64,000 bases of DNA, from positions 24,956,545 through 25,020,544 of the forward strand of contig NC_030386.2 in the NCBI RefSeq assembly GCF_001625215.2, in the 5' to 3' direction. The DNA comes from Daucus carota subsp. sativus. Lineage: Eukaryota > Streptophyta > Magnoliopsida > Apiales > Apiaceae. The notes beneath the pieces were generated by a model, which worked only from the letters and a program-made list of their open reading frames with translations, was not told the origin of the DNA and searched no databases. Position numbers and translations under genes: made by a program. This document shows positions 11,005 to 27,343 of this stretch, piece by piece. Each line of letters starts with the position of its first letter. Position 1 is the stretch's first letter.

Positions 11005-14000
11005 ATGGCATCGGCATCAACACCAGAGCAGGTTAAGTTGGATAAGGAATGTGAGCTACGAGTTGAAATCGGCCCGGAATCTCCTCTTCGTCTTAGGCTA
11101 CTCACTGGCACTGCTGAAATCTTTGGCACTGAGATCCCTCCTCAAATTTGGCTCTCCTTCCCCCCTTCCGTCAAATTTGCAGTAAGCCTTGTTCAACTTT
11201 TCAACTTTCGTTTAAATTACTCTTTTATCATCCCTTGATTTCTACGCGGAGCGGACCTAGCTACTTTTGTAAATATTAGGGTATTATTGGCTCTTTGATC
11301 AATGAGGGGTTTGTGGTTTCTGAATAAAGATGACTTCTTTGGACAATCTTTAAGTGTTGTGGTTCATTTATATCGCAAATTCACGGCATTATATTTCTGA
11401 CCTCATTATACTGCTCCACTAGTCACAAATTCTTAACTGCATATATTTTACATGGACTAAGAATGTACTTGCCTCTGGAGGATTGTATGTGCACAACATA
11501 AAGGGACGGGACATGCTCAGTCCAGTTATCCCGCTTAGAGCGGGCATAGGTGAACAAAATGTATACTCTATATTTCTACAAATAGAAATTCTACACTGAC
11601 AGATAGTAGAATATCCTTGCCTCCAGAGGATTATATGTGACCAAATTGTACACTCTATATTTCTACTATTAGTAGTTGTGTTTTAAATCTGTTGCTGCTT
11701 GCCTAGACTTGACACTATTAACCAGTAGGTGCGATTTCCAATTGGTTTTTAGTACTAGTCACCTGCTTGCTACTAATATAATGCCTTGTCATCTTTCACA
11801 CGACTTTCTCAGGTTTTTACTTGGTATGGAGCTACTATAGAAATGGATGGTCCTACTGAAACTTATTACACAGCAGATGAGGTAACATGAATTTTTGTAA
11901 AGGTAGTCTGCTAAATTTTACTCAGCAACTAATTCTTTTTATCTTTATGTCAGACACCAATGGTTAGTTACGTAAATGTACATGCTGTACTGGATGCAAG
12001 GAGAAACCGTGCCAAAGCATCTCCTAGTGATACCGAGTCTTCTCAAGTACTATCCCAGTCATTGTTTTTTTAGATATAAAATATTAGAAGTCTTCTTTGT
12101 GAAAGTAGGAATTGCTTTTCCATAACTGCAGTCTTTAATATGTGATGCCATCTTAAATGCCAGATACATTTTTCTTTTAGGATTAGAGATTGCCATTAGC
12201 TTATGGAGGTTTTAAGAATAACCTGAATCCGTTTTCCCTCTAAAAATGTTATGAGCAATAAGTAGTCTTGTGTTAACTTCTGCTAGTTCCAAAGACGTAC
12301 GACATCTTTTCATTCTCATTATAGAGCTCCAAGTGCAAATTTAATCTAGATAGATTAACGCTATAGTCTAGTTCTCTATACTATTATAGAGTATCTATAG
12401 ATGTAAACTTGAAAACTGGCATCTGGTACTCTGTCGAGTTCCTCTTATTCTATAGCCTTCTTTACAGCGACATGTGTCATGGAGTATTTGCAGTTGTATC
12501 TGTTTTTTAATTAGCACTGTTGAAGGAATAATATCTCCAGTGAAGTATCACAGTCCTTGTAATATTGTAGAAGTATCCTATTTGATATGTTGTGTATAGT
12601 GTATACAGTTGCTATCTTTATTTTACTCCCTAGTTGTTGCCTAAAGTTGGATATGAAGACGCATTATCCACAAATGTTGCACGTTTTCTTTTCTTTCTAA
12701 AGTTTCAATCCGTGTGTTGTTTAGGGTCCAAGGGTAATTGTTGTGGGACCTACAGATTCAGGAAAGAGTACCTTGTCTAGGATGCTTCTTAGTTGGGCAG
12801 CTAAACAAGGTTGGAAACCTACATTTGTGGATTTAGACATTGGCCAAGGATCTATAACCATTCCCGGGTGCGTCGCTGCCACTCCAATTGAAATGCCTAT
12901 TGATCCTGTGGAAGGAATTCCTCTTGAAATGCCTCTTGTGTACTTCTATGGGCATCCAACACCTAGGTACTACTTCTTGCCACCCATTTATTTTGTATGG
13001 CAGTTCCAATTTATTGTTCCTTTTTAATCATTTGTGGCCCTCACGCTTGCTACAGTGCAAATGCTGATCTTTACAAGGTTCTGGTCAAGGAACTTTCTAA
13101 AATCTTGGAGAGACAGTTTGCCGGGAATACTGAATCTCGAGCTGCTGGAATGGTGATCAATACCATGGGCTGGGTAGATGGTCTTGGTTATGAGGTACCC
13201 GAGTTGTAAATATATACATTCAATGTTGCTAGTCTGGTGAAATCAGTTGGCTCAAGCAGTGAATGTATAAATTTTAGATGTTGACATTTTAACTGTACCT
13301 GTTTCAGCTACTTTTACATGCGATTGATACATTCAGTGCAACAGTTGTTCTGGTTCTGGGACAGGTTAGTTTTATTCAGTCAGTAGCTGAAATCTACTGG
13401 TCAGAATGCAATTCTTTTTGTTTCCTAGGTTGGCTGTTAATGTAGTTGCTATTATGATTTTCGTCATCTTTATATTTTGGTCTTATTGTTTGTTTGAATT
13501 TTCTTAAATACTTGACCTCAAAGTTTGAAAGAATTTGTGCCAGTTTGAGATTTTAGACCAGAATTGGTACTTGCCAGTGTCTGTCTTGATCATTAAAATT
13601 TGCGCAGGAAAAACTTTGTAGCATGCTCAAAGATGTTTTGAAAAGCAAGCCTAATGTAGATGTTGTGAAACTTCAAAAGTCAGGTGGCGTTGTATCAAGG
13701 AACGCGAAAGTGCGTCAGAAGGCTAGGGGCCACAGAATAAGGGTAAAAGATTTTAACTTTTTCCTTTAAATCTAAGATTAAATGATTTAGTGGTTTAGAA
13801 ATGTGAATTTTTGAATATTATTTGTGTTTGGTTAAATTTTTCAGGAATACTTTTATGGCCTTACTAATGATCTGTCCCCACACTCTAATGTTGCTAGTTT
13901 TAGCGATTTAACTGTCTTTCGAGTTGGTGGGGGGCCACAGGCCCCTCGTTCAGCTCTGCCAATTGGTGCTGAGCCTGCTGCAGATCCGACAAGATTGGTT

Positions 14001-15864: not shown

Positions 15865-18440
15865 TTAGAACTTGGTACCGAAACTCACTCCAAACATTGC
15901 ACTGCTGTCTGAATCCCTGGTGTAAAACACACTTGAAATGGCAACACGGGAATTCTGATTAACCTTGCTTAACATAACAAAAGTTGCCACACCATGGTTG
16001 TCGTAACATGCTTTCAGTATGGTCGCAGAACTCAATGCAAACTTAGTGTGATAGGTGATAGTATTTTGATGGGTAGATAAATTATGACTTGCTTCAGCAC
16101 TGACTGCTATAATAGACAGAGAAGCCAATGCACGTTGAATGACGTTCATGTTCTTCCAGAGGTTGCAATTTACTTTATGGCAGTAGGATGCGTTCAATGT
16201 GCTCCCTTTATAACCACTGTATAAACATTACAAGGTTTCATCAGCAGATTACACAATAGGATCCTGGCAACAAATTAATAGATACACTTGAAATTCTAAA
16301 ACAATACGGAGTTAGATACTTACAACATGAAGGTGTTCTTCAGGCCTACATAGCGAAGGGTAATACCACCGGAAAATTTTGCCGTTCTCATATCATATGA
16401 GACATCTGTTTCCAGTGCAGTAGTGCTATCTCTTACAAAGCTAGAGAAGTTAAGAATAGGGTTTCCAGTCAACCTCATGATGTGTACATTGATCCCAGCA
16501 TATTTATGTTGGTATTCAACTCCTATCTGATACATTCAAACACAAACAACACAATAATATCATAAGAAATTCAGATGCTTATTAGTAACTAGGAGCAGTC
16601 GAGCTTCCCCTTGGCAATTTATGCAGAGAGCTAGTTTGGCATCCTGTCCTCCCTCATCAGTGCTTTATATATAATTATAACAAATTATACTACATAGTAA
16701 TACAGAAATTAATAATTGCTTTCCATCAATATAACACGACATTACTAAACTCACCACGTCAGATTTCGGCTTCAGAATGTCGAATCTACAAAAAGCCTTC
16801 ATACCAGGAAAAAGAGAACGTCCATCAATGGCGAAGTTGGTGAGAACCTTGTGTGGCCAAAAAGGATGAGCATGGCAATCCATCCAACAGAAAAGAATTT
16901 ATTCATGCAAATGGAATATGGATGAGTATAAATGAGAAGAGTAAACATTTAATCATGGTTCAATGAAGTATAAGACTGGTAGCTAGACATGACTTAATTA
17001 TATCACAACAATTACTGTCCAAGGAAGTTGGCCATATGCAATAATTGTTTATATATCCAAATCGAATGCTGCACAATATATCAAAATATAATAACTGATA
17101 ACAAAGGCAAAAGAAAGAAGAAGAGGTGTTCCCTATGAAGTATTTAATCCATTTAAAGGCTTTAAAAGATTATAATGAGATTGAGGACAAGTCTTGATGC
17201 CTGAGTAAAGTTCAATGCAGACCCCATTTTAGTTGGAGTCTCAGAGTCCATTCTGCATCATTGGGTCAAATCTAAACAATGAGTCAAATTTCAAACCTAT
17301 TTTGATGAAGAAAATAGGTTTGAAATTTGAATCATTGTTTAAGATTTTATCCAACAATGTAGAATGGACTCCGAGACTCCAACTAAAACGGGGTATTCAT
17401 TGAACTTTACTCTAAATAATACTATCACCAAAATAAGTAACTCAAAAGTTTATGTAAAACAAATCATAAACCAAATTCTAGGGCTAATTTTACTTTGTTC
17501 TGCCATGTTTTACAATTTTCACGGTTTCTACAAGCTGTCTAAGAAGATGTAGCAACTTCGTAGCAAGAACATATCTGGCAACACATTAATACAAGCACAA
17601 CAATCTTAAACAAAAAATGTATTTTTAAGGAAAGAGTCACTGAACAATTGCACCGTACAAGTTAAACCGGCCAAAAAGGAAAAGGAACAGAAAACTAATA
17701 AACCAGCCATATAACGGTATTAATAAATGCCAAAAAGTAGTCACAGCCAATATCACGTTATTAAATAAAAAGTATTTATATTTATTTAATTGACAATTAA
17801 AGTTAACAAATTAGCGAAGCCAATAAAAAAGGAATAGAACTAGAACTTGTTGAAAATTGACCCCGTTGCACTGAAAACATATAGACAACTTACATTAGGA
17901 TTTGTGAGCAAGTTAAATTTGATGTCAGCACTAAAAATTCCGCTTTTCAGATGTGCACTGTACACAGACATGTATACACCATTTCCCGCTGATCCAATAA
18001 CCTGAAATGAGAGAAGAGCTCAAATCTCACACAAAACAAGCTAGTGTAGTTGACAACCAGATCGATGTAAAATAGGCAAACTGATGAAATCAGTCACTCA
18101 CAAATCTAGATGAAACATTGGGACTGAACTTGAGCTTGCCGTAATCCTTGTTAAAAATTTCTAATTGAATCAAGTAAACATTATCAGAAATCAGAAACCC
18201 ATCGCAGTTATCACATGATAATAATATATACATGAAGAGCAATATTGTTCAGAAATCAAACTACAAATTAAACAACGAGGTTACATGGATCGGTCACCAA
18301 GATCTCGTCATTACACATGATATATATTATTGTTAAAATAGATATCCAACAACTCAATCAACATATAATGCAGAAAAATTTATACACAAACCTCTTGTTT
18401 TCTGGATGATATAAGAGTAAAGACTAGTATCCTTGCTCAT
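15865..18440 (-). CDS. VDAC-like mitochondrial outer-membrane porin, gene A
   Basis: Six exons: 18,440-18,392; 18,160-18,102; 18,001-17,894; 16,847-16,755; 16,526-16,324; 16,216-15,865. The sum is 864 nt (287 aa). The exon layout and phases match plant VDAC genes (exon 4 is 93 nt and exon 6 is 352 nt, as in gene B). Recognisable blocks: N-terminal helix region (MSKDTSLYSY...KTR), NKDY, LKSGIFSADIKF, GMK in place of the usual GLK nucleotide-binding triplet, YAGI, NPILNFSS, TDVSYD, NTITYHTKFAL, and a C-terminal beta-signal-like end (MFGVSFGTKF). Family role: beta-barrel for ATP/ADP and metabolite exchange. The protein is divergent from canonical plant VDACs and carries an extra stretch of about 15 residues after YCHKV, also present in gene B. 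The reading frame is intact. Exons 1-3 lie inside the left arm of the large inverted repeat, so its promoter is palindromic. Confidence 0.82.
17205..17415. mobile_element. Palindromic (foldback) MITE, left copy
   Basis: Nearly the whole element is an inverted repeat. It begins gtaaagttcaatgcagaccc and ends with the complementary form (cattgaactttac), with arms of about 100 bp meeting near 17,308. It lies in intron 3 of VDAC-like gene A. A second copy sits at 20,167-20,383. The two mark the outer ends of the large inverted repeat. Confidence 0.75.
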
Positions 18441-18748
18441 TATCACTTGCGGCAATGGAGAACAGTAAGATATAAAAAAAATGAAAACAAATGTGCTTTG
18501 CAAGACAAAGAGTTTTAAACACACGCCATTGATCTATAATCTTAGCCGGGGTTCTTTCTCATTTTGAAACCGTCAGATTATTTTGTTTTTGAGTTCTGAT
18601 AATAATGACAAAATTCTTCTTGGTTTTCTCCGCCAAAAGCTCAGACCATTCCCATCAATGTAGAGCCAGGTTTTGTGAAAAATGCAAAACTGAAAAAAGC
18701 ACAAGCTCCAATTTTAAAGCGCAACTCGCGAAGTGCGATTACTCACAC

Positions 18749-18775
18749 GATAGATAGATCAATAGATAGATAGAT
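18749..18775. repeat. GATA microsatellite in the inverted-repeat loop
   Basis: Run of gata units with one interruption, located at the centre of symmetry of the large inverted repeat. Confidence 0.8.
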
Positions 18776-19108
18776 AATTTAATTTTTGGCCAAAAAATCG
18801 TGTGAGTAATCACACTTCGCGAGTTGCGCTTTAAAATTGGAGCTTGCGCTTTTTTCAGTTTTGCATTTTTCATAAAACTGGCCCCACTACATTGATGGGA
18901 ATGGTCTAAGCCGTTGGCGAAGAAAACCAAAAAGAATCTTGTCATTATTATCAGAACTCAAAAACAAAATAATCTGACGGTTTCAGAATGAGAAAGAAAC
19001 CCGGCTAAGATTATAGGCTAATGGCGTGTGTTTAAAACCCTTTGTCTTGCAAAGCAAAAGAGTTTCATTTTTTTTATGTCTTACTATTCTTCATTTCCGC
19101 AAGTACTA

Positions 19109-19690
19109 ATGACCAAGGATACTGGTCTTTACTCATATATCATCCAGTAAACAAGAGGTTTGTGTATAAATTTATTTTGTATTCCTATGTATATGTTGAT
19201 TGAGTTGTTGGATATCTATTATAACATTAATATATACCATGCGTAATGACGAGATCCTAGTGACCGATCCAAGTAATCTCACTGTTTAATTTGTAGTTTC
19301 ATTTGTAATTAAGGTCTATAAATTATGTCTAAACAATATTGCTCTTCATGTATATATTATTATCATGTGATAACTTAGATGGGTTTCTAATTTATGATAA
19401 TGTTTACTTAATTCAATTAGATACTTTTAACAAGGATTACGGCAAGCTCAAGTCAGTCCCAATATTTCATCTAGATTTGTGAGTGACTGAGTTCATCAGT
19501 TTGCCTATTTTACATCGATCTGGTTGTCAACTACACTAGCTTGTTTTGTGTGAGATTTGACCTCCTCTCTCATTTCTGGTTATTGGATCAGCGCCGGGAA
19601 AATAGTGTATACATGTCTGTGTACAGTGCACATCTGAAAAGTGGAATTTTTATTGCTGACATCAAATTTAACCTGCTCACAAATCCTAAT
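19109..19690 (+). pseudogene. Partial VDAC-like pseudogene (exons 1-3) in the right arm
   Basis: Mirror copy of exons 1-3 of gene A, head to head with it. Copy of exon 1 at 19,109-19,157 keeps an ATG but has TAA where gene A has AAA (codon 14). Copy of exon 2 at about 19,421-19,478 has a 1-nt deletion (aagtcagt for aagttcagt). Copy of exon 3 at 19,579-19,690 has lost the acceptor AG (ctg for cag), has small insertions after GSA, and its donor is weakened. Exons 4-6 are absent because the duplication stops in intron 3 at the MITE. It cannot encode a porin. The interval between the two start positions (18,440 to 19,109) is a symmetric, possibly bidirectional promoter. Confidence 0.85.
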
Positions 19691-20166
19691 GTAATTTGTG
19701 TATATGTTTGCGTCAATTTTCAACAAGTTCTAGTTCTATTCCTTTTTTATTAACTTCGCTAATTTGTTAACTTTAATTGTCAAATAAATAAATAAATATG
19801 GATAGTTCTTTTTTATTTAATAACATAATATTGGATGTGACTACTTTTTGGCATTTATTAATATTGTTATATGGCTGGTTTATTGGTTTTCTATTCTTTT
19901 TCCTTTTTGGCCAGTTTAACTTGTACGGTGCAATTGTTCAGTGACACTTTCCTTAAAAATACATTGTTTGCTTATGACTGTTGTGCTTGTATTAATGTGT
20001 TGCCAGATATGTTCTTGGTACGAAGTTGCTATATCTTCTTAGGCAGCTTGTAAAAACCATGAAAATTGTAAAACATGGCAAAACAAAGTAAAATTAGCCA
20101 TAGAATTTGGTTTATGATCTGTTTTACATAAAATTTGTGAGTTACTTATTTTCGTGATAATATTAT

Positions 20167-20385
20167 TTAGAGTAAAGTTCAATGGAAACCCCGTTTTAGT
20201 TGGAGTCTCGGAGTCCATTCTACATCGTTGGATAAAATCTTAAACAATGATTCAAATTTTAAACCTATGATCTTCATCAAAATAGGTTTGAAATTTGACT
20301 CATTGTTTAAATTTGGCTCAATGATGCCGAATGGACTCTGAGACTCCAACTAAAATAGGGTCTCCATTGAACTTTACACATTCTT
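20167..20385. mobile_element. Palindromic (foldback) MITE, right copy
   Basis: Same family as 17,205-17,415, with terminal gtaaagttcaatgg and ccattgaactttac and arms of about 100 bp. It forms the outer end of the right arm of the large inverted repeat; flanking sequence beyond it no longer matches the left side. Confidence 0.75.
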
Positions 20386-20783
20386 TCTCTTCCTTGTAAA
20401 GGATTATAACTTATTTTTAATTTAAGGTTATTTCAATCATTTTGTATTTTTGAAGATAGTGCGATATTTGGCAAGTAATCGCGAATCAGGCTTGATTTTA
20501 TGCCAATTTCATAATTGCACTAAATCGGTCATATGCAGCTTGCGAAACATTCGCTTACTCGCGAAGCGAGATTAATCGCGATTCTAACAACACTGAGTGG
20601 GTTGGGCTCCAATTATGTACTATCCAATTCAAATTGGGATAAATTGCTTTATCCCAAGAATAAATTGTTAAGAGTTTTTTTCATTGTCATTTAAGTAAAA
20701 GAAAAATCAGGTATTGATCGTTATGTTCGTTAATATCCGATGCAGCAACATTAAAATATTACTTCTATCGATGAACCCCAGAG

Positions 20784-23760: not shown

Positions 23761-23834
23761 TTTCTTCACCTCTTAGAGTCACACTCAAAAATTCTAAAAG
23801 ATTTCATATTTAACTCTTTATGTTTATTATTCAA

Positions 23835-24245
23835 GAAGGCATAAGACTAGAAAGTAAACCTGACTAAATAATATGACAATAATTGCTAGCCAAGGAAATT
23901 GGCCATATGCACAATTTGTTTATATAACAAATAATGCACAATGGATCATAAGTATATAACTGAAAACAAAGGACAAAAGAGAGAAGGAGAGGTGTTCCTT
24001 ATGAAGGACTTACTATCTTTGAAGCCTTTAAGGTATTGTACGTGTGCAGTGTCTGTCGGGGTATCTTGTTTTCTGGCCAAATATAAGAGTAAATACCAGT
24101 ATGATTGCCAATTAGTACTTGTGAAATTATACAACCGTAAAAACGAATAAAAGAAATGAGAAATTTGTGTGCTTTGCAGGACGAAGAGTTTCAGAAACAT
24201 GCTTTTGAACTATAATCTTAGCCAGGGTCCTCTGTCATGCTACAA
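23835..24245 (-). pseudogene. VDAC-like remnant C (intron 3 joined to exon 1)
   Basis: 23,840-24,045 matches the part of gene A intron 3 at about 16,950-17,200 (shared caaggaaattggccatatgc). Then 24,060-24,240 matches gene A exon 1 and its upstream region (tcttgttttctgg, ataagagtaaa, tgctttgca, aactataatcttagcc). Exons 2 and 3 and the palindromic MITE are missing, and the start codon of exon 1 is gone. Exons 4-6 are not found to the left. This is a relic of a further porin copy with an internal deletion. Confidence 0.68.
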
Positions 24246-24404
24246 CAGTCAAATTACTTTGTTCTTAACAAAAAATTTCAAATATTAATGACTCGAACAC
24301 GTACAACATGATCTTCTCAGTATTCTCCGCCATAGCATAAGATTGTATGAGTTCAATACAATCCTATTTGAATACTTTTTATCCCTGAAACAAATATTAC
24401 TCTT

Positions 24405-25384: not shown

Positions 25385-27343
25385 TTATGATCTGGTAGAA
25401 AAGGCCACTCCCAACTTGGGGGTCTTGTCCAAAGCCTTGATGTCAACTTCACCTGATATAGTAACAAAAGACTTCCCGTTCCACTTGCTTTCCATAACAA
25501 CACTTGTCGTGCCAATGTTGTTTATACGCGCTTTCAGTGTGGTTGAACGACTCAGAGCGAACTGAGTGCCAATAGTGATGGTATTCTCTTTTGTTGATAA
25601 GTTGTGAGTTGCTTCAGCGCCAACTGCTGTTATGGATACAGATGTCAATGCACGTTGAATGATGTTTGTGTTCTTTGAGAGCTTGCCACGCACCTTGTGG
25701 TAGTAAAAGGCATTCAGAGTCTTCCTTTTATCATTACTGTATTAACATCACAAGCTTGTCAGCAAATTATGCACAAAAGGGAACAGACACTACCAATGTA
25801 GTGTGGTCTGATGCTCCTAGATCTTGAATGTTGAAACTGTACATGCTACTTAATCAGATACTTACAGGGTTAAAGAAGCAATTAGGCCTGCATAGCCAAA
25901 GCTAATCTTAGCACTGCATCTGGGGAATTTTCCTGTTTTTGTGTCAAATGAGACATCGGTCCCTAGTGATGCCATATTATGGCCGAGCAAGCATGAGAAG
26001 TTGAGAATGGGGGTTCTAGTCAATCCAGTAATGTTCATACTGATATCAGCACAGTCATATAGGTAACGAAGTCCGATCTGTTACAGTAAATCAAATGTAA
26101 GAAATAGAAAAGAATTCAGATTTCAGAACTTAGAATGTATGCAAATCTAATCTTCAAAACCCCAATTTCAATCCTCAGCTCTGAACTTGTCACCCACCGT
26201 ATATGATAAATAATATATGTATCATACTCATACATATAACAAAGAAGTAAACAACTGTTCTTTATCAGTATAACGAAACATAACTTGACTTACTGTTTGA
26301 GATTTCGGCTTGAGAATATTGAAGTTACCAATAGCCTTTAACCCAGGAAGAAGGTGACGTTGATCATGAACTAAGTTGACGAAAACCTGAGGGACAACAT
26401 GATCAACGAAAAGAAAGAGAGTTATTCATGCAAACAACAGGAAATAGGATAACTATATAGAGAGGAAGCAAATCGATTTCCTGCTTCAAGTAAGTAGCAA
26501 CAAGACTTAATTAGTTCAATTATGTGAATCTTTCTCTCCTACAATCTTGCCAAAATTAAAGCTTAAGTGCCCCCTCTGATGTATTTAATCTCACGAAAGG
26601 CATATAAATGACACACAAATTCTGAGTTTGCGCCTTTGAGGACAAGTACATCAAAACTTTTACGCACAAAAGCAAATATATAAATGACAATTGCAGGCAG
26701 ATAATGCAACATGAAAGCTGTATATTGATTTGTATTAAAAGACTAATTAACAGCCCGAATGGACCTTCAGGCTTCAAATTAGATGCATGATAAATTATGT
26801 TGGCATATAGTGCGTAGCAAACACCCTGGAAGACAAATAATTTTAAGTGCTTAAAAGACGATAGCATTCAATCAAGAAACTGTAATTCTGTAAAGCGCAG
26901 AGCTTACGTTTGGATGCCTGCCCAGTTTAACATTAATATCAGCAGTTAAGTTCCTGTTCTTAAGCTGTGTGCTGATAGTAGACAAGTAAACTCCATTTTT
27001 CATCGAAGATGTAATAGCCTGCAATTGGACCAAAACACAAACACAAATGAAGCACAACTCGACAACCTAATCGATGAAAAATAGGCAACAAAGTCATCAA
27101 CTCACAAGTCCAGGAGGAGCATCGGGCCGGAACTTGACATTGTTGCTGTGACTGTGATCCTTGTGAAGAAGATCTAACACATCAATTAAACATATTAGAC
27201 ACACAACTCTTCTACCTTGTACAATAACATAGACAAGCACTTAGTACCACAAAGATATACACACACACTTGTATGTATATCAAACAAATCAAACCTCTTT
27301 TTGTCTTGCGAGCATCAGAGTAGAAATTAAGACCCTTTCCCAT
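25385..27343 (-). CDS. VDAC-like mitochondrial outer-membrane porin, gene B
   Basis: Six exons: 27,343-27,295; 27,173-27,106; 27,018-26,908; 26,386-26,294; 26,077-25,866; 25,736-25,385. The sum is 885 nt (294 aa), all GT-AG with consistent phases. Closer to canonical VDAC than gene A: MGKGLNFYSDARK, RDLLHKD, PPGLAITSS, QLKNRNLTADI, the GLK triplet (LPGLKAI), NPxL-like TPILNFS, SLGTDVSFDTKTG, KENTITIGTQFAL, SGEVDIKALDK, and a beta-signal-like KLGVAFS near the end. Forms a voltage-gated beta-barrel for metabolites and ions. As in gene A, about 15 extra residues follow YYHKV (RGKLSKNTNIIQRALTS region), giving a protein longer than the usual roughly 276 aa. Tandem with gene A in the same orientation, with remnant C and the X modules between them. 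Intact. Confidence 0.88.

Follow-up and report, generated by a model that had tools for sequence, protein, structure and literature searches.

An inverted copy of the 5' half of a VDAC gene between the ends of a hAT transposon in carrot

Introduction

Animal genomes contain elements called Pack-TIRs, in which host sequence lies between the two ends of one terminal inverted repeat (TIR) transposon. Of 370 such elements 208 were found in hAT transposons, and they are held to form by gap filling that uses nearby templates and microhomology; 160 of 281 parents lay within 15 kb, microhomology was present at one or more breakpoints in 190, and the median gap amounted to 4.6% of the element (PMC8277862). 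In maize, hAT elements with gene fragments have been called rare (two Ds2 and nine Ds-l4, with 903 Ds-related elements in B73), and the capture by Ds2 and Ds-l4 was attributed to repair following excision (PMC3260210). In this work we analyze a locus in carrot (Daucus carota subsp. sativus) where the 5' half of a VDAC gene, which we call gene A, has an inverted copy situated between the two ends of a hAT element. The stretch of DNA analyzed, referred to below as the window, comprises the 64,000 nucleotides of C6:24956545-25020544 in a 441-Mb genome of 11 contigs, and positions are given in window coordinates unless a contig is named.

The carrot locus resembles the animal Pack-TIRs in holding single-copy host sequence inside a TIR transposon, with a very near template, breakpoints inside the element, and filler and perhaps short similarity at the junctions. 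It differs from the animal cases in that the template appears to be the element's own flank, copied backwards along with its target-site duplication and the hAT 3' end, and in that element and donor gene form one palindrome and about a third of the hAT has been lost (PMC8277862). With maize Ds2 and Ds-l4 it shares a non-autonomous plant hAT with captured gene fragments, introns included; unlike the two maize cases illustrated, in which the donors lie on other chromosomes, gene A adjoins the element (PMC3260210).

Inverted gene duplications have been proposed as a source of new plant MIRNA and small interfering RNA (siRNA) loci. Like the carrot locus, the VIM4-VIM2 pair of Arabidopsis Cvi-0 is an inverted repeat of genes arranged head to head around a short centre, which in VIM4-VIM2 is nonpalindromic and about 50 bp long; its arms include 100% identical stretches and siRNAs have been shown, whereas the carrot arms are 92.5% identical and one of them is a truncated pseudogene (PMC13213937). 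PAI1-PAI4 of Arabidopsis Ws is also an inverted duplication of an endogenous gene, with fold-back RNA made by read-through, but is arranged tail to tail and can act on unlinked copies, whereas the carrot locus is head to head and involves the 5' half only (PMC3203196). Finally, the model in which young MIRNA genes arise by inverted duplication (Allen et al. 2004, cited in PMC3237417) similarly has a partial inverted copy beside, and divergent from, its source; at the carrot locus any mature miRNA, processing or target regulation would be hypothetical.

Results

An inverted repeat occupies 17,203-20,380, and its right arm lies between the two ends of what appears to be one hAT element. A sequence-only reading of the window had proposed two inverted arms of about 1.55 kb around a centre of about 45 bp, the left arm carrying exons 1-3 of an intact porin gene and the right arm a decayed mirror copy, with palindromic miniature inverted-repeat transposable elements (MITEs) at both outer ends. 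Each of these proposals was borne out, the spacer between the arms measuring 45 bp. The features of the locus are as follows.

15865..18440, minus strand: gene A, an intact, diverged VDAC/Porin_3 gene of six exons
17203..18751, no strand: left arm, with MITE, part of intron 3, exons 3-1, 5' flank and hAT 3' end
17203..17412, no strand: palindromic MITE-like element in gene A intron 3, an imperfect palindrome of about 209 bp with arms 86% alike
18659..18666, no strand: site of the left-arm copy of the hAT target-site duplication, which is eroded and has a 2-nt gap relative to the right arm
18667..18751, minus strand: left-arm copy of the non-autonomous hAT 3' end, by sequence match
18752..18766, no strand: GATA-rich filler at the central junction, like neither hAT end
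18767..18880, plus strand: right-arm copy of the same hAT 3' end, about 30 bp longer inward than the left-arm copy
18797..20380, plus strand: right arm, a derived inverted copy of the gene A 5' half with three disabling lesions
18881..18888, no strand: right-arm copy of the target-site duplication, next to the hAT 3' end, reverse complement AGTGGGGC
20172..20377, no strand: palindromic MITE copy at the outer end of the right arm, an imperfect palindrome with arms 82% alike
20378..20595, minus strand: hAT 5' part abutting the MITE tip, with its terminus CAACACTG at 20595
20596..20603, no strand: distal target-site duplication AGTGGGTT, matching the right-arm copy at 6 of 8 positions

In a trimmed alignment, the left arm and the reverse complement of the right arm were 92.5% identical (115 differences in 1536 ungapped columns, plus 60 gapped columns), with 66 transitions and 49 transversions and a Kimura two-parameter (K2P) distance of 0.079. 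The real pair of arms scored 2117 bits over 1595 nt by reverse-strand BLAST. When both arms were shuffled 50 times with dinucleotides preserved, the best reverse-strand match scored 29 bits over 18 nt. Among the best candidates listed from a search of the 441-Mb genome with the left arm (46 rows), only the two arms matched over the whole length; the remaining listed matches fell to the MITE, to the central repeat or to a VDAC fragment of 74% identity within the window. Identity between the arms was 91.8%, 94.6% and 95.2% in exons 1, 2 and 3, 90.5%, 96.3% and 92.5% in introns 1, 2 and 3, 88.5% in the 5' region, 93.8% in the MITE and 96.3% in the hAT end. Plant substitution rates are 0.7-1.3e-8 per site per year, and from these the K of 0.079 gives a rough age of 3-6 million years for the arm duplication.

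The centre is more than a spacer. It holds the 3' end of a broken hAT element, the other end of which is found past the right arm, and the event was thus an insertion into the hAT. A genome search with the repeat centre returned many dispersed copies matching 18,767-18,881 (59 rows), which are the 3' end of a larger hAT. One copy, L029, is 800 bp long and has the short terminal inverted repeats of the family, CAGTGTTG...CAACACTG. Flanking 8-bp duplications are the mark of hAT transposons, and perfect ones were present at three of the four family copies inspected. The 3' end of L029 matched both 18762-18880 (85% over 119) and the reverse complement of 18787-18670 (77% over 123), and its 5' part matched the reverse complement of 20580-20461 (80% over 120). 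Two further copies, L070 and L074, matched at 72-73% along the entire stretch between the 5' terminus (20,595) and the tip of the MITE (20,377). The central 209-bp palindrome was also considered as a MITE in its own right and rejected, as its dispersed copies are single 3' ends of the larger hAT and not palindromes.

A second genome search, with 20,379-20,600, confirmed the hAT 5' end and gave 31 matches besides itself. When these were paired by hand, 17 had a 3'-end match within 1.2 kb in the correct order and orientation. The paired spans were 520-1165 bp (16 of 17 at most 794 bp), as compared with 1929 bp between the ends at the locus. Here the 5' terminus is kept and the 3' terminus is mutated in both arms; right-arm hAT homology begins near 18,762-18,767 and runs to the 3' terminus at 18,880. 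Relative to L070 (546 bp), about 199 bp between the two breakpoints is missing. Elsewhere in the genome, C7:13028319-13029673 has two of the family's 3' ends and one of its 5' ends within 1.4 kb, possibly another compound element.

The target-site duplication beside the 3' end was carried into the right arm. There, AGTGGGGC agrees at six of eight positions with AGTGGGTT beyond the 5' terminus, a match expected by chance with a probability of about 0.004 for one try, or about 0.008 if both arm copies are counted. The right arm thereby appears to preserve the original state of the target site despite erosion in the left arm. Because order, orientation, abutment and target-site duplication agree, one interrupted hAT is by far the simplest view, and from these matches we hold it very probable that the two hAT pieces are a single insertion. 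With one hAT end at the centre and the other beyond the right arm, it follows that the right arm is the derived copy, inserted in reverse into a hAT that already stood upstream of gene A. That the hAT predates the duplication follows also from the presence of its 3' end in both arms (3 of 82 sites differ). The right arm shows two features of a Pack-TIR: sequence other than transposable element is enclosed by the ends of a single TIR element, and the parent, gene A, lies directly adjacent.

At its outer end the copied arm stops no more than about 3 bp from the tip of the MITE and there meets the interior of the hAT. The MITE is a short dispersed element bearing terminal inverted repeats; its family is sparse, with copies elsewhere in the genome such as C5:18691013-18691435, which has two inverted ends. 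At the copies inspected no clear target-site duplication was seen by eye. As both arms hold the MITE (13 of 210 sites differ), it too predates the duplication.

The three disabling lesions of the right arm are a TAA at 19148-19150 in exon 1, the loss of 1 nt from exon 2 near 19450 and the gain of 4 nt in exon 3 near 19593. Exons 4-6 of gene A were not found beyond this arm. To polarize the changes between the arms we used two VDAC relatives in the window.

23830..24266, minus strand: eroded 5' fragment of a further VDAC copy, by sequence match to the gene A region
25385..27343, minus strand: gene B, an intact tandem VDAC of 294 aa (Porin_3 139.3 bits), used for comparison

With the fragment as outgroup, 6 changes were left-only and 9 right-only; with gene B over exons 1-3, the numbers were 3 and 8. 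With both outgroups the right arm would appear to evolve faster, on counts that are too small. In the fragment itself, 23830-24031 resembles 16959-17165 (78%) and 24064-24266 resembles 18393-18590 (74%), while the start codon is lost and the exon 2-3 part is absent.

Gene A has exons at 18440-18392, 18160-18102, 18001-17894, 16847-16755, 16526-16324 and 16216-15865, of which 1-3 lie inside the left arm and 4-6 outside; 226 bp separate its start codon from the hAT. Each of its introns, five in number, has GT-AG borders, and an open frame of 864 nt encodes 287 aa. Residues 7-279 match Pfam Porin_3 with a modest 55.9 bits (cut-off 28.4; E 5.8e-15), and a sequence search of the PDB with the protein found nothing at E up to 0.1. 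The proteins of genes A and B share 130 of 287 aligned residues (45% identity), and nonsynonymous over synonymous divergence (dN/dS) between the genes was 0.394/0.735 (NG86) or 0.435/0.600 (YN00), which is below one but relaxed. By its sequence, gene A is classed as a mitochondrial-porin (VDAC)-type gene, intact yet diverged. Two further observations concern the surroundings of gene A and its family. An exon of a CLP1-type gene (12725-12964, plus strand; CLP1_P, 107.4 bits) has its transcription directed toward gene A. At C6:26789079-26789696, a Porin_3 match spans the greater part of the C-terminal half and contains two in-frame stops; it may be a VDAC copy of the processed or read-through kind.

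Origin of the inverted copy

We consider it likely that this inverted duplication of half a gene formed inside the hAT by gap filling, with the element's own flank, in reverse, as the template. A non-autonomous hAT would have inserted upstream of gene A, duplicating an 8-bp target of the AGTGGGnn type, and would later have suffered an internal break. The gap would then have been filled from a template in the wrong direction, beginning within the hAT 3' end, and copying would have proceeded through the target-site duplication into the 5' flank of gene A, on over its exons 1-3 and finally along the MITE of intron 3. Synthesis would have halted at the far tip of the MITE, and what was left of the hAT 5' half would there have been fused to the newly made end; the middle of the element would have been lost and the short GATA-rich filler left at the other junction. 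The outcome would be a hAT stretched to 1.93 kb, holding an inverted copy of its neighbor and forming a head-to-head palindrome with the living gene A. Afterwards the copy would have decayed and gene A retained its open frame. The lesions, the arm junctions, both hAT ends with their orientation and order, and the copied target-site duplication can be read off the sequence directly; gap filling with a template switch is the most likely route that we can infer from these junctions.

Several observations weigh against this account. Microhomology at the outer junction is weak (TGTG at the locus, TGAG on the gene side, TTTGAG in hAT copies), and the inner junction shares only GAT/GATA. The lost middle corresponds to about 36% of L070, as compared with the median of 4.6% in animal cases (PMC8277862). 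Either an internal break or repair that followed excision could account for a loss of this extent. Similarity of the hAT pieces to other copies is just 72-86%, so that the ancestral length is approximate. The left-arm copy of the target site agrees with the distal copy at only three of eight positions and has two bases gone relative to the right arm. The suggestion that the self-complementarity of the MITE halted copying is drawn from a single coincidence, the stop at the MITE tip, and the evidence as a whole comes from one genome.

Alternative explanations

An ordinary inverted tandem duplication, by fold-back or sister-chromatid fusion at a break, could also have produced the palindrome, with the hAT as the mere site and a later deletion reaching to the MITE. 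Consistent with a fold-back junction, the centre is GATA-rich and slightly asymmetric, the left hAT copy ending at 18751 and the right one reaching 18767. However, a second, independent event would be required to explain why the copy stops at the MITE tip and adjoins the hAT interior there, whereas gap filling accounts for both junctions together. We therefore regard such a duplication as unlikely.

We also asked whether the locus may be working today as a hairpin locus, in which read-through double-stranded RNA (dsRNA) would yield siRNAs that regulate gene A, a proto-MIRNA under the inverted-duplication model. The potential to fold back if transcribed through, anticipated by the sequence-only reading, was clear in silico: in a 3178-nt read-through transcript, 1434 of 1460 pairs on the plus strand and 1425 of 1466 on the minus strand joined the two halves, so that folding is nearly complete from arm to arm, and the predicted duplex contained 22 perfect runs of at least 21 nt, the longest of 69. 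That reading was also correct in remarking that simple divergent transcription gives RNAs of the same sense. In addition, the head-to-head VIM4-VIM2 pair of Arabidopsis Cvi-0 yields siRNAs (PMC13213937), and differences between the carrot arms are about twice as frequent at CG/CHG as at CHH sites (26/252 versus 40/751, p 0.008; pooled and without a control region), which may be a weak hint of past methylation. Against present activity, C-to-T changes are not significantly skewed between the arms (39 left-to-right versus 27 in reverse, p 0.18), and the right arm is decaying with indels while the frame of gene A stays open.

The sequence-only reading saw a hairpin RNA as able to feed siRNAs against porin mRNAs, which is at best incomplete. 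The left-arm genome search listed no VDAC match other than the 74% fragment in the same window, so the evident target is in cis, with gene A as the sole close sequence target among the best genome matches listed. When exonic 21-mers were compared with 12 VDAC loci and the gene B region, taken with about 1.5-kb flanks around mostly 3' exons, the minimum was 5-7 mismatches in 37 of 39 comparisons and 2 in the other two, which include the VDAC fragment. Because this set may miss 5' exons, the whole-genome DNA search is the better evidence on targets in trans.

A permissive Rfam search of 15-24 kb returned 17 weak matches, none of which attained its gathering score. The left MITE searched by itself gave 42 rows for 226 bases on both strands, the best at 63.2 bits versus a gathering score of 136. 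As many unrelated hairpin models match the same MITE, these matches reflect hairpin shape and not a microRNA (miRNA). A MIRNA identity was rejected, since all matches were sub-threshold and many belonged to unrelated families, animal ones included. Palindromic MITEs can in this way mislead miRNA annotation that relies on hairpin shape. Taken together, the locus is probably an inert relic with a latent capacity for hairpin RNA. It is conceivable, though we are doubtful, that it makes detectable hairpin small RNAs, and we find it quite improbable that it functions as a hairpin locus that regulates gene A. A joint reading, in which hAT gap repair generates inverted gene duplications, the MITE sets the length of the arm and cis-acting small RNAs act on gene A as a proto-MIRNA, seems to us rather unlikely.

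The palindromic MITE might itself have driven the event, if aberrant transposition (sister-chromatid or of reversed ends) joined the MITE tip to a hAT target. Rearrangements at transposon ends are known to produce inverted duplications for Ac/Ds in maize, and the copy terminates about 3 bp or less from the tip. Yet the MITE sits whole within the copied arm, the hAT target must also have shed about 200 bp, and the inner junction lies inside the hAT and not at any transposon end. Nor is a target duplication visible at the MITE tip, the family's own duplication being undefinable from the copies inspected. The sequence-only reading had suggested that the MITE mediated or bounded the event. Of these, bounding holds, and no result shows mediation; the MITE already stood in intron 3 and was copied with the arm. 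The MITE marks the end of copying and nothing shows that it moved DNA; we regard a MITE-driven origin as very unlikely. Long palindromes are known to cause assembly errors, but an assembly artefact is next to impossible here, because the divergence between the arms is so large, indels included, and duplicated reads can yield neither the 115 substitutions and 60 gapped columns nor a hAT split on either side of the right arm.

Implications

In a limited literature search on hAT gap repair and reversed flank capture, we did not find a description of a hAT carrying an inverted copy of its own flank. Every ingredient of the gap-filling account is already known, and the combination is a variant in which a hAT would have copied its own flank, reversed, into a palindrome with a living gene. 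The inverted duplications behind young MIRNA genes are said to arise by 'not well-known mechanisms' (PMC3237417). At the carrot locus both junctions can still be read, through the hAT end, the target-site duplication, the filler and the MITE tip, and they point to transposon gap filling as a one-step route to a head-to-head gene palindrome. Gap filling has so far been described mainly for captured fragments, and this locus suggests that it may also offer a concrete route to inverted duplications of the MIRNA type.

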